Shown here piece after piece: positions 2,539-5,854 of a stretch of 45,698 bases of DNA. The first letter of the stretch is position 1; every line of letters begins with the position of its first letter. The notes under the pieces are model-generated. The model was not told the DNA's origin. It was given only the letters and a program-made list of their open reading frames with translations, and made no database searches. Made by a program: the position numbers and the translations under genes. Source of the stretch: Candidatus Magasanikiibacteriota bacterium (GTDB taxonomy: Bacteria; Patescibacteriota; Patescibacteriia; Magasanikbacterales; JACTTX01); assembly GCA_015661005.1 (NCBI GenBank), contig JACTTX010000007.1:1-45698 (forward strand). The letters are read 5' to 3'.

Positions 2539-2962
2539 TCCGAGGTAGCTCAGCGGTAGAGCAGGTGGCTGTGAAATAATTTCGAAATATGGGGGAACGA
2601 AGAAGTTACGCATCAAGAGCGGAGTACATAAAGGCGGCTGTTGCCAAACGACGCCGCCGTTTAAAAGAAATGGCCGCTCAATTTGCCATCGTGAAATACA
2701 TGCCGGAATAATCGCAGCGCCGCGTAGCAATGCGCGATGTAAAACCGGGTGAAATCGGGGAAACCCTCAAGGGCAATCCCGAGCCAAACCATGAAGGGCC
2801 GTGGTTTCATGGAAGGTGTAGAGACTAGCGAGTGAGTCCCAACAATAATCTCGCGCGAGCGCCCGGCCTCCCTCGTGGAGGATGAGATAGTCCATCCCAG
2901 TTGGTAACAGCTGGATAAATGTAACCACTTGGTCGTGGGTTCGAATCCCACCCTCGGAGCCA
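2539..2962 (+). tRNA. tRNA-Asn(GUU) interrupted by a group I intron
   Basis: The exons are 2539-2572 and 2922-2962 and give a 75-nt tRNA with encoded CCA (2960-2962). Acceptor arms TCCGAGG/CCTCGGA pair fully; D stem GCTC/GAGC, T stem GTGGG/CCCAC and anticodon stem GGTGG/CCACT (one wobble) all form. Splicing after U2572 and after G2921 yields the 7-nt loop CTGTTAA, anticodon GUU (Asn). The intron therefore sits between anticodon positions 35 and 36. Without splicing the 5' part misleadingly reads GTG (His). The gene sits between IS elements and the inverted-repeat island. Confidence 0.92.
2573..2921 (+). ncRNA. Group I self-splicing intron in tRNA-Asn
   Basis: A 349-nt intron without a homing endonuclease gene. 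The 5' exon ends in U and the intron ends in G, as group I chemistry requires. The core shows a P4-P6-like segment (about 2748-2785: AATCGGGG, GGGCAA, CCCGAGCC) and P7 arms GACTA (2823-2827) and TAGTC (2888-2892), the guanosine-binding region. Group I introns in bacterial tRNA anticodon loops are known (Leu, Arg, Ile, fMet), and introns are frequent in CPR bacteria. The exact P1/IGS pairing was not resolved by eye. Confidence 0.85.
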
Positions 2963-3003
2963 TCAAAAAAATCTGTCAGCGACAGATTTTTTTGATGGCT
3001 CCC
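2957..3003. terminator. Long palindromic terminator after tRNA-Asn
   Basis: A perfect 22-bp palindrome with a 3-base loop (AGC). The inner arms AAAAAAATCTGTC/GACAGATTTTTTT give U-runs in both directions, so it can terminate transcription from either side. The outer arms are the tRNA 3' end GGAGCCATC and its reverse complement. The right arm overlaps the start of the 198-bp inverted repeat. Confidence 0.75.
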
Positions 3004-3186
3004 GAATTAAAACCCTCTCAAACTTTTGACATTATTTTACCAAACCTAATCCACAAATCCAAAAAGCGAAATCTGCACTAATTGCCCGCCGCCACAGGCG
3101 GCGGGCAAAACCCATTGGCTCGCGGGCAAAAAATTTTCTTCCCCTTGAACCCCTCCATTTTTTGCCCGCTCGCTGAAAATATCAGG
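2989..3186 (+). repeat. Left copy of the 198-bp island inverted repeat
   Basis: Matches the reverse complement of 5638-5835 over 198 bases with three visible mismatches. It contains its own strong palindrome GCCCGCCGCC-ACA-GGCGGCGGGC (about 3084-3107) and a second nested pair GCGGGCAAAAAA/TTTTTTGCCCGC. It begins within the tRNA-Asn terminator. No coding function is evident; the two copies may be termini of a mobile unit or a dispersed repeat. Confidence 0.9.
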
Positions 3187-3226
3187 CGCATTGCCAAAGA
3201 TATTCAATACTCCTCAGTTAATCTTT

Positions 3227-3946
3227 CTAATTTTTTAGAATCCACTTTCGGGGCAATGGCCCTCCAGATGTCTCATAGATATACTTTACTAATTTAGAAA
3301 GAATTACCTTTCTTTTTTGTATATTTCCCTCCTTATAAAAATTTTCTATACGGTCTGCAAATTTTTTATCTAACTTCCTCAATTGTATCATTGTTTCGTT
3401 TGGTTGCCCTAAAAATTTCCCATTTAACTTGAGAAATAACTCTATTATATTATTCACCAATAAGTGGCTATCTAAACCAAAAGCCAAATAGTCTCTTTTC
3501 TGTATGTCGCGCTGAACTTCTCCCCAAAAATCATCAATGGAGTATTTATGCATTAAAACCTCACTATTTTTATACTTAGTTTTCAACTTCAGAATGTTTT
3601 TAGCAATAGTTTGAATCTTTTCTAAATTCCGTTGTCTTTGGAAAAGAATTCTGCCATAGGCCAGCATATGGGAAGTAATCCTACGCAAATTATTTCTGTC
3701 TTCTTTAAGATATTCTTTCGCCTCTTTTATTGTATTCAAAATAATATCAACACGAACACCATTTTTTACAAAATTATTTCTGGAAAATTTGCCTCTTTTA
3801 TTTAACAGAATATATATGTCAACATCGGAATACTTATCAAATTTATTTCTTGCCACAGATCCGAATAGCAAAATACCTAAGACATTTTTATCTCGTTTGT
3901 ATTGTTCTATCAAATCATTGCAAATTTTTTGGATAGACTTTTCCAT
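3227..3946 (-). CDS. MNT-type nucleotidyltransferase with C-terminal helical domain
   Basis: A 239-residue protein. The N-terminal region (about 20-70) carries the polymerase-beta-like nucleotidyltransferase signature GSVARNKFDKYSDVDIYIL: the GS motif plus SDVD, with a third acidic residue in VRVDIIL (about 67). The remainder (about 110-225) is an all-helical region resembling the KNTase-C/HEPN-like domains fused to such enzymes in toxin-antitoxin modules and antibiotic adenylyltransferases. The gene is much more AT-rich, with AAA/ATT/TTA codons, than its neighbours, which suggests transfer. Its ATG follows directly after the U-tract of the upstream operon's terminator and no Shine-Dalgarno is visible. 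Substrate unknown. Confidence 0.72.
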   Translation of the reverse strand: MEKSIQKICNDLIEQYKRDKNVLGILLFGSVARNKFDKYSDVDIYILLNKRGKFSRNNFVKNGVRVDIILNTIKEAKEYLKEDRNNLRRITSHMLAYGRILFQRQRNLEKIQTIAKNILKLKTKYKNSEVLMHKYSIDDFWGEVQRDIQKRDYLAFGLDSHLLVNNIIELFLKLNGKFLGQPNETMIQLRKLDKKFADRIENFYKEGNIQKRKVILSKLVKYIYETSGGPLPRKWILKN

Positions 3947-3957
3947 AAAAATAAAAT

Positions 3958-3993
3958 GGGGCTAAGGTAAGTGTATCACTTTTCCTTAGCCCC
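3958..3993 (-). terminator. Rho-independent terminator of the maturase/peptide operon
   Basis: On the minus strand GGGGCTAAGG and CCTTAGCCCC form a 10-bp stem followed by ATTTTATTTTT. It lies 16 bases past the stop codon of the small peptide and just before the nucleotidyltransferase ATG. Confidence 0.8.
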
Positions 3994-4008: not shown

Positions 4009-4110
4009 TTAGTGGCAGTTACTGGGACGCTGACAGGTGCAGAGCACCTTCAGCTTCGGCAACGGCTTGACCTTGAGGGCTGGCCGCTGCTTGAGCTGTG
4101 CCTTCTGCAT
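4009..4110 (-). CDS. Putative Cys-containing RiPP precursor peptide (33 aa)
   Basis: A 33-codon ORF beginning 5 bases after the maturase stop, with a strong Shine-Dalgarno (AGGAGG, 8 bases before ATG) formed by the last codons of the maturase gene, so the two are translationally coupled. The peptide has a basic, Pro/Lys/Leu-rich N-terminal part (about 1-22) and a compact C terminus CTCQRPSNCH with three cysteines (24, 26, 32). A short basic leader, a Cys-rich core and an adjacent SPASM radical SAM enzyme are the hallmarks of radical-SAM-modified peptides such as sactipeptides and ranthipeptides. A terminator follows directly. I do not recognise the family, and no protease or exporter is adjacent; function is inferred from context. 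Confidence 0.7.
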   Translation of the reverse strand: MQKAQLKQRPALKVKPLPKLKVLCTCQRPSNCH

Positions 4111-4115
4111 AGCAT

Positions 4116-5555
4116 TCACCTCCTTTCTGTTGCAGGTTGGAGAAGTTCCGGCTCTGATGCCGTCGCTTCTCGCAGTTGTTCTCGGAGAATCTCTTGGGTC
4201 ATGCGGCGGTAGAAATCGCACATTCGTTCGATCTTGGTGGTTTTCGTCGCCCGAGCGAACTCTTGCGTGATATTGCAACCACCGCCGCACTGTCCTTCGA
4301 TCATGCACCCTTTGCACATTTCCATCACTTCGGTAAGATGGTCTCTTACGAAACGATGGTAGGCAGTGCCGGGCGCATGAAACGATTGGATTTCCGAGAG
4401 ACTCCCGAGTTGGGTCGTGCTGTAGCCGCATCCATAGATGTTTCCGGACGGGCCTACGCACATGCTGTTGCCGCGGACTGCGCCGCAGAACGCGACGCGG
4501 CTTTCGAGCGTTGATTCGTTAAGATTCTCGGCTGGCCGTGACCAGAAGCCGGGAACATCAACACCTCGTGTCGCCGCGTAGCGCCGAATTCGCATCAGCT
4601 TTGCGACGATATCCTCAATCGGAATTTCCACCATATCGACAACGTCGATATCAATCCTGACGTTCTTCATGCCGCGGGCTACTGCCCAGTCGACAATAGA
4701 CTCGTCAAGTTCGTGAAAATTCTTTTCGGTAATTGTCACCGCAACGCCATCGAGCGGATATCCCGCTTGAGCCAGCGCTTCGAATCCGCGCATGATCTGA
4801 GAGAATGTGCCGCTTCCCGATTTCGTCAGTCGGACGCGATCATTTCCCTCGCGCAAGCCGTCGAGACTAGAAGCGATCTCGACGCTATGTTCTTTGAGAA
4901 TCGCGGCGATCTCTGGCGTGATGAGTGACGCATTCGTGTTGATCGAGAAGCGGAACTCAAATTCCGAGCTGTAGGTAGCACGGCAGTACTCAAGCGCTTG
5001 CTTGATAACCGGCCATGCCAACAGCGGTTCGCCTCCGCCAAAGTTGATCTCGGCGACACGCTTTCCATGCCCACGAAGAATCTCGAGATACCGATCCACT
5101 GTTCCCATGGCTGTATCGAACCGCATGAACTTCTTGGGGTTGTTGATGCGGTCAGAAGTTTCCAAGTTGTTGAAGTGGATGCAGTAGGTACAACGGAAGT
5201 TGCACGCCTCACTCATGATGAGTTCGAGATAATTGATCAGCGAGCCGCTGACGATTTCCGCCTCGCGCGTCCGCATTTTTTCTTCGAGGAACGCTCGGTC
5301 GTCAAAATCTTCTAGGACGAGGAAGTAACATCGAAGGAATTCCTCGATTGCTTCTCGATCCTCGCTCGTCAGCTCATTGCCGAGTTGCGAACAGATCGTC
5401 TTCGGCGTTGAGAAAAATTCAAGGAATTCGAGCGTCTCGACAGGAACGATTTTGGGATAACCGAACAACGAATGCCAGATTACCGCAGAGTCGCCGTTTT
5501 GGACGACCCGCACGAACGGCGACTTCACGTAGGCGACATTAAGGTTAAGTGCCAT
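4116..5555 (-). CDS. Radical SAM/SPASM peptide maturase
   Basis: A 479-residue enzyme. Residues about 1-105 form an N-terminal region of the kind that may bind leader peptides. The radical SAM core follows, with the 4Fe-4S motif CNFRCTYC (Cys 118, 122, 125) and GGGEP (173-177) for SAM binding. The C-terminal SPASM domain has eight Cys (357, 366, 376, 414, 417, 423, 427, 446) in the CX9GX4C ... CX2CX5CX3C ... C arrangement that holds two auxiliary clusters. SPASM enzymes modify peptides (PqqE, sactisynthases) or sulfatases (anSME); no sulfatase is near, while a 33-residue Cys peptide follows at once. Start: ATG with AAGGAG 6 bases upstream. Codon use and GC content differ strongly from the neighbouring nucleotidyltransferase. 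Confidence 0.85.
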   Translation of the reverse strand: MALNLNVAYVKSPFVRVVQNGDSAVIWHSLFGYPKIVPVETLEFLEFFSTPKTICSQLGNELTSEDREAIEEFLRCYFLVLEDFDDRAFLEEKMRTREAEIVSGSLINYLELIMSEACNFRCTYCIHFNNLETSDRINNPKKFMRFDTAMGTVDRYLEILRGHGKRVAEINFGGGEPLLAWPVIKQALEYCRATYSSEFEFRFSINTNASLITPEIAAILKEHSVEIASSLDGLREGNDRVRLTKSGSGTFSQIMRGFEALAQAGYPLDGVAVTITEKNFHELDESIVDWAVARGMKNVRIDIDVVDMVEIPIEDIVAKLMRIRRYAATRGVDVPGFWSRPAENLNESTLESRVAFCGAVRGNSMCVGPSGNIYGCGYSTTQLGSLSEIQSFHAPGTAYHRFVRDHLTEVMEMCKGCMIEGQCGGGCNITQEFARATKTTKIERMCDFYRRMTQEILREQLREATASEPELLQPATERR

Positions 5556-5604: not shown

Positions 5605-5633
5605 AATCTATCATGATTTCATTATTTTTGTAA
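5605..5633 (-). promoter_or_regulatory. Candidate promoter of the maturase/peptide operon
   Basis: On the minus strand TTACAA (5628-5633), a 17-base spacer and TAGATT (5605-5610) sit about 50 bases upstream of the maturase ATG, just inside the right inverted repeat. The boxes are imperfect but the spacing is ideal. Confidence 0.45.
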
Positions 5634-5637
5634 TTCC

Positions 5638-5835
5638 CCTGATATTTTCGGCGAGCGGGCAAAAAATGGAGGGGTTCAAGGGGAGGAAAATTTTTTGCCC
5701 GCGAGCCAATGGGTTTTGCCCGCCGCCTGTGGCGGCGGGCAATTAGTGCAGATTTCGCTTTTTGAATTTGTGGATTAGGTTTGGTAAAATAATGTCAAAA
5801 GTTTGAGAGGGTTTTAATTCGGGAGCCATCAAAAA
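5638..5835 (-). repeat. Right copy of the 198-bp island inverted repeat
   Basis: Reverse complement of 2989-3186 with three mismatches. Its outer end GGAGCCATCAAAAA (5822-5835) repeats, in direct orientation, the tRNA-Asn 3' end and following bases (2957-2970), a 14-bp att-like direct repeat bracketing the island. The promoter of the next gene starts just outside it. Confidence 0.9.
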
Positions 5836-5854
5836 GGCCCCCCGGCGCTTCCAG

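Follow-up and report, generated by a model that had tools for sequence, protein, structure and literature searches.

The question raised by this locus is whether the short reading frame lying directly behind a radical SAM/SPASM enzyme is a genuine gene and, if so, what kind of product the two could make together. The window, i.e. the whole stretch of 45,698 nucleotides that was analysed, comes from a Candidatus Magasanikiibacteriota bacterium. Peptide cores acquire thioether, C-C or other bonds through maturases of the SPASM type, and the earlier note had proposed here a new pair of SPASM maturase and precursor in a CPR bacterium, organized as a closed unit of promoter, maturase, peptide and terminator. 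The features concerned are the following:

4116-5555, minus strand: radical SAM/SPASM peptide maturase, 479 aa (ORF with ATG start; invariant Cys sets)
4117-4126, minus strand: Shine-Dalgarno sequence of the precursor, AAAGGAGGTG, overlapping the maturase stop (read from the sequence; strong counterparts in other loci)
4009-4110, minus strand: precursor peptide, 33 aa, MQKAQLKQRPALKVKPLPKLKVLCTCQRPSNCH (found in 19 of 19 intact loci; pN/pS)
4012-4038, minus strand: conserved core of the precursor, TCQRPSNCH, forming its very C-terminal end (T, C, S, N and C invariant)
3949-3993, minus strand: terminator hairpin and T-rich tail 3' of the precursor (stem GGGGCTAAGG/CCTTAGCCCC, -21.9 kcal/mol)

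The maturase contains the radical SAM motif CxxxCxxC (C118/C122/C125) and a seven-Cys SPASM set (C357-x13-G-x4-C376, C414-x2-C417-x5-C423-x3-C427, C446). The complete Cys sets claimed from the letters alone are real: the ORF is confirmed and both sets are unchanged in an alignment of 14-15 homologues. The protein remains below the cut-off of every family shown. The top NCBIfam model is PapB, with 146 bits for a cut-off of 340, and the SCIFF/CteB family TIGR03974 reaches 92 bits for a cut-off of 425; sulfatase maturases and the other named SPASM families were discarded with scores well below their cut-offs. The AlphaFold model of the maturase resembles TigE (PDB 8vpo) and CteB. TigE is the closest solved structure (fold E-value 4e-25, the N-terminal domain included), and the profile match to this protein covers residues 7-457 with an E-value of 2e-55. 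In the same model, the N-terminal domain (approximately residues 8-81) is composed of strands and three helices with a mean pLDDT of 75; it is predicted to be RRE-like, and leader binding is inferred from this likeness. In virus, phage and plasmid collections, only distant SPASM proteins matched the maturase. A role in anti-phage defence was considered and rejected, PADLOC giving domain-level matches only (viperin radical SAM core, PDC-S09), and two weak matches of the maturase, L079 and L087, proved to be SPASM proteins of another kind, with no peptide of this type.

The precursor ORF begins 5 nt past the maturase stop and its Shine-Dalgarno sequence, AAAGGAGGTGA, overlaps the maturase TGA; coordinates and sequence thus bear out the 33-residue frame and strong Shine-Dalgarno described in the earlier note. 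The terminator hairpin (3958-3993, with a 10-bp G+C-rich stem) was missed by a simple scan because its loop exceeds 8 nt, and the comparison of cassettes places hairpins 3' of most precursors. The notion of a closed unit survives only in part: the terminator is present, a simple scan found no consensus promoter upstream of the maturase, and closure has to be abandoned since a third gene, presented below, belongs to the cassette.

A scan of GTDB representative genomes produced 14 loci with a maturase 50-92% identical to that of the window. Nearly all come from CPR bacteria (Brennerbacteria, Ryanbacteria, Portnoybacteria, Peregrinibacteria, Parcubacteria and other Patescibacteria); one, L001, bears an Omnitrophica label that may reflect misbinning. 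Combined with the loci of the genome searches, they constitute clade A, a set of 19 separate intact loci. The absence of a conserved peptide behind homologous maturases had been named in advance as a refutation of the proposal. This check was run, and all 19 loci have, behind the maturase, an ORF of 24-35 codons preceded by a Shine-Dalgarno sequence. A sister clade, clade B, comprises five maturases that are 30-37% identical to that of the window (loci L057-L061, re-fetched as L068-L072), and an ORF of 20-31 codons ending in GKRTxCK lies behind the maturase in five of five readable loci. The pairing of maturase and precursor is therefore well supported by comparison of the loci.

Residues T25, C26, S30, N31 and C32 of the precursor are invariant across clade A, and the last residue is H, K or R in 17 of the 19 peptides, the exceptions being L067 (S) and L065 (AKS). 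Conservation does not extend to the first Cys of CTC: the CxC-x5-C pattern initially put forward reduces to C-x5-C and the conserved motif becomes T-C-x2-[PQS]-S-N-C. Clade A and clade B precursors have in common an [S/T]-x-C-basic signature near the C-terminus; the last Cys could be inferred to be their common modification site, provided that the enzymes of both clades do the same chemistry. Among close relatives, the pN/pS ratio is 0.12 for the final nine codons, against 0.42 for the leader. Judged by this ratio, the core is under strong purifying selection acting in frame; together with the presence of the peptide in all 19 intact loci, this shows that the short ORF is a true gene. The core can also be recovered without reference to the enzyme. 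Indeed, when 381 genomes were scanned for a DNA pattern covering the core and its stop codon, with the maturase ignored, six matches were obtained: four intact cassettes (one of them spanning two contigs), a cassette in decay, and a match, TCGGSCNCN in G465, situated away from any cassette and attributed to chance. The cassette is rare, being present in 12 of 381 genomes of the class when both clades are counted.

The existence of a new maturase/precursor pair in CPR bacteria is thus upheld by the 19 loci, whereas two properties of the cassette, its third gene and its mobility, had escaped the earlier note, and with them the inference of an antibiotic-like product accompanied by self-immunity. 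In the window the third gene is:

3227-3946, minus strand: nucleotidyltransferase, 239 aa, proposed self-immunity gene (Pfam Polbeta/NTP_transf_2; ANT(4') fold)

A third gene is found in all 19 clade A loci and encodes a nucleotidyltransferase in 10 of them and a GNAT acetyltransferase in the other 9 (truncated by the contig end in L004). In clade B it is convergent, ends 15-34 nt from the precursor and encodes an APH-family kinase in four loci and a Tet-like MFS pump, most similar to Tet(40)/TetA(P), in one. A terminator separates the nucleotidyltransferase gene from the precursor in most loci, and the flanks beyond the third genes are mostly unrelated housekeeping genes. The clade A cassette has no exporter or dedicated protease, as had been remarked from the window alone. 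The linkage of the third gene does not result from chance: in the 12 genomes tested, APH genes number 1-3 and PF13302 GNAT genes 0-2 per genome, and no full-length nucleotidyltransferase of the cassette type occurs away from a cassette.

The AlphaFold model of the window nucleotidyltransferase (pLDDT 86) matches the ANT(4') kanamycin nucleotidyltransferase over its full length (TM 0.65, about 250 columns), including the C-terminal helical domain of the ANT fold. Its fold is also similar to those of LinB, ANT(6) and HalB of the Hailong defence system, and MNT antitoxins match its N-terminal domain only. By profile, the best solved relatives of the GNAT proteins are aminoglycoside and streptothricin acetyltransferases, and those of the APH proteins are hygromycin kinases. 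These likenesses to resistance enzymes are distant, with 10-16% identity by fold. The third-gene proteins fall within the wider Pfam families; the cut-offs of the curated resistance families are not reached (Lnu(H), 31 of 540 bits; AAC(6'), about 30-34 of 250-450; APH(3'), 31 of 205; Tet(40), 86 of 800). The type VII antitoxin MntA was examined as an identity for the nucleotidyltransferase and rejected, with 25 bits for a cut-off of 60 and no separate HEPN gene seen adjacent. ANT-, GNAT- and APH-type enzymes are also known to act on metabolites and proteins.

The cassette of the window lies between two repeat arms:

2989-3198, plus strand: left arm of a 210-nt inverted repeat flanking the cassette (97% complementary to 5626-5835)
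5626-5835, minus strand: right arm of the 210-nt inverted repeat (pairs with 2989-3198)

This repeat, of which only two copies exist in the 870-kb genome, encloses all three genes, and the L005 cassette is likewise flanked by inverted repeats of a different length. From locus to locus, DNA similarity extends in most cases from at most 40 nt upstream of the maturase start to approximately where the third gene ends, the flanks being unrelated, and differently named CPR phylum-level lineages hold loci with 85-92% maturase identity. According to these alignments, the cassette moves horizontally as a 2.4-kb unit, by means of a mover that is still unidentified. The G+C contents of the maturase (53%) and nucleotidyltransferase (30%) genes suggest that they have different histories. 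A relative combining the same flanking genes with an empty site was not found in 29 genomes.

The surroundings of the repeat deserve description. At 2539-2962, a tRNA gene contains a group I intron (Rfam RF00028, 2683-2914), and joining of the exons by the group I rule, with exon 1 extending to 2572 and exon 2 starting from 2922, results in a tRNA-Asn(GTT). The left repeat arm begins directly behind this gene. The tRNA 3' end, GGAGCCATCAAAAA (2956-3002 region), has an inverted copy at 2981-3002 and a second copy at 5824-5846, at the outer end of the right arm; these copies suggest a tRNA-associated integration. Two transposase-like ORFs are situated to the left of the tRNA gene (61-1044; 1147-2436, the latter with weak HTH and rve_3 matches), beside 36-nt repeats at 39-74 and 1109-1144. 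In clade B, two cassettes from different families (L070, 4430-7492; L071, 1-3792) have common downstream neighbours, an HTH protein and a sigma factor, which suggests either the same insertion site or vertical inheritance.

The third gene itself can be exchanged. At L005, what remains of a nucleotidyltransferase gene, its 3' part, comes directly after the GNAT gene, which demonstrates that the GNAT gene replaced it. The last 12 residues of the precursor are identical in the window and in L005, and the third genes are respectively a nucleotidyltransferase and a GNAT; the third gene is consequently not matched to the core sequence. How frequently such events took place is less certain. On the maturase tree, the label of the third gene changes about five times (bootstrap range 4-6 for GNAT), the well-supported branches alone force one change, and the support for repeated swaps is weak. 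At L096, the nucleotidyltransferase has kept its full length and its GS...DxD motif, the maturase and the greater part of the leader having been lost. Such a retention is what selection for resistance would give, in this single case.

Other genes adjoin the cassette in a few relatives. A gene for an MvdD-like ATP-grasp peptide ligase adjoins the intact cassette of L067 (1518-2462), and another was recognized by eye behind the broken maturase of L014 (from about 4420), hinting at a contact with CPR graspetide loci. Genes for SAM-dependent methyltransferases adjoin the GNAT-type cassettes of L065 (4869-5492, TehB-like) and L005 (4443-4814); they may be extra tailoring or immunity genes.

Taken together, these data are best accounted for by a minimal, mobile RiPP cassette with an antibiotic-like product and a swappable self-immunity gene, an interpretation considered probable even if the chemistry, the leader binding, the activity and the immunity are all inferred. 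The RRE-like domain of the maturase would bind the leader of the 33-aa precursor, a basic stretch rich in Pro and Lys, and the enzyme would modify the core TCxx[P/Q/S]SNC; a radical crosslink via one or both conserved Cys is the probable modification. A host peptidase would then remove the leader, releasing an antibiotic-like inhibitor. The third gene would provide producer immunity by inactivating the product inside the cell, through adenylylation in the window and acetylation in about half of the relatives; in clade B, the product would be phosphorylated or pumped out. Since chemically unlike inactivating enzymes and a pump occupy one slot, protection of the producer is inferred to be their simplest common role, and inactivation in the cytosol suggests that the target is probably intracellular as well.

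The third enzymes could instead perform the final biosynthetic step, the adenylylation, acetylation or phosphorylation creating the active molecule. MccB adenylates the microcin C precursor and GNATs acylate other RiPPs. The fixed position behind the precursor is consistent with such a tailoring function, and the methyltransferases of L005 and L065, together with the ATP-grasp gene beside L067, indicate that tailoring genes can join these loci. It is nevertheless unlikely, as the same slot holds different chemistries and an MFS pump in spite of the near-identical cores of the window and L005, the L096 nucleotidyltransferase persists without a maturase, and the nucleotidyltransferase gene stands behind the terminator in most loci.

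Still less plausible is an addiction module of the toxin-antitoxin kind, in which the unexported modified peptide would harm a cell losing the cassette and the third enzyme would be the antidote. A mobile, compact and patchily distributed cassette without exporter would suit this role, as would the resemblance of the nucleotidyltransferase N-terminal domain to MNT antitoxins, but ANT(4') matches the protein over its whole length and MNT in part only, a toxin dependent on a maturase would be unusual, and an efflux pump is encoded at one of the clade B loci. Short precursors with a C-terminal core (PqqA, MftA) also give rise to PQQ and mycofactocin, and the short precursor, fixed C-terminal core and lack of exporter are reminiscent of these systems; the Cys/His-rich precursor ends could moreover bind metal. 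That the product is a small cofactor, signal or metal ligand rather than an antibiotic is however very improbable, because no redox enzyme or other cofactor user is linked, the third genes are of resistance types, and the cassette is both rare and mobile. An antibiotic-like product with self-immunity accordingly remains the preferred reading.

Several known systems can be compared with the cassette so understood. Microcin C (MccA-MccE) derives from a very short precursor, and a cytosolic acetyltransferase inactivates the product as a self-immunity, in parallel with the immunity proposed here; however, MccB is an adenylating and not a radical SAM enzyme, an exporter is present and there is no sequence relation. 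The PapB/PapA ranthipeptides (NF047865), the best-scoring curated family, also rely on a radical SAM/SPASM enzyme whose precursor contains Cys, but the PapA-type Cys-x3-Asp repeats are absent and the maturase score is far from the PapB cut-off. CteB, the SCIFF maturase (PDB 5wgg), has the same succession of RRE, radical SAM and SPASM domains as the window maturase and forms a Cys thioether; its six-Cys precursor is missing, the cassette precursor having two conserved Cys. TigE, although closest by fold and profile, shows only 19% identity, and belongs with the cyclopropylglycine-forming enzymes. In this group, TvgB acts on repeated TVGG motifs (PMC9062424), which the cassette precursor lacks. 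RiPP loci have been described in CPR bacteria in the form of graspetides, some with a SPASM enzyme or a methyltransferase (PMC8939145); these are centred on an ATP-grasp ligase, found here only beside L067 and the broken L014. Full-text literature searches, subscription papers excluded, retrieved those graspetides only and no report of the present system. The precursor matches no Pfam or NCBIfam model. Together with the maturase scores and the silence of the literature, this designates a RiPP of the radical SAM kind whose precursor family is probably new and whose interchangeable immunity slot, itself inferred, is unusual. Gene callers easily overlook precursors of 20-35 aa, and the family is therefore probably under-annotated.

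A broader proposition, which is possible but no better than tentative, is that CPR bacteria possess a class of ultra-short RiPP antibiotics carried by mobile cassettes, in which the immunity slot takes any antibiotic-inactivating or efflux gene. If so, radical modification of a TCxxPSNC or GKRTxC core could be unprecedented, and competition among CPR bacteria would be a natural setting selecting resistance-type enzymes, for which a single slot occupied by ANT-, AAC-, APH- and Tet-type genes would give the concrete ecological context. CPR bacteria are ultrasmall organisms, for the most part uncultured, and little secondary metabolism is attributed to them. A three-gene cassette with its inferred immunity partner would make their chemical competition directly testable in E. 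coli, and the data suggest that bacteria regarded as poor producers of antibiotics carry a system of this kind not described before.
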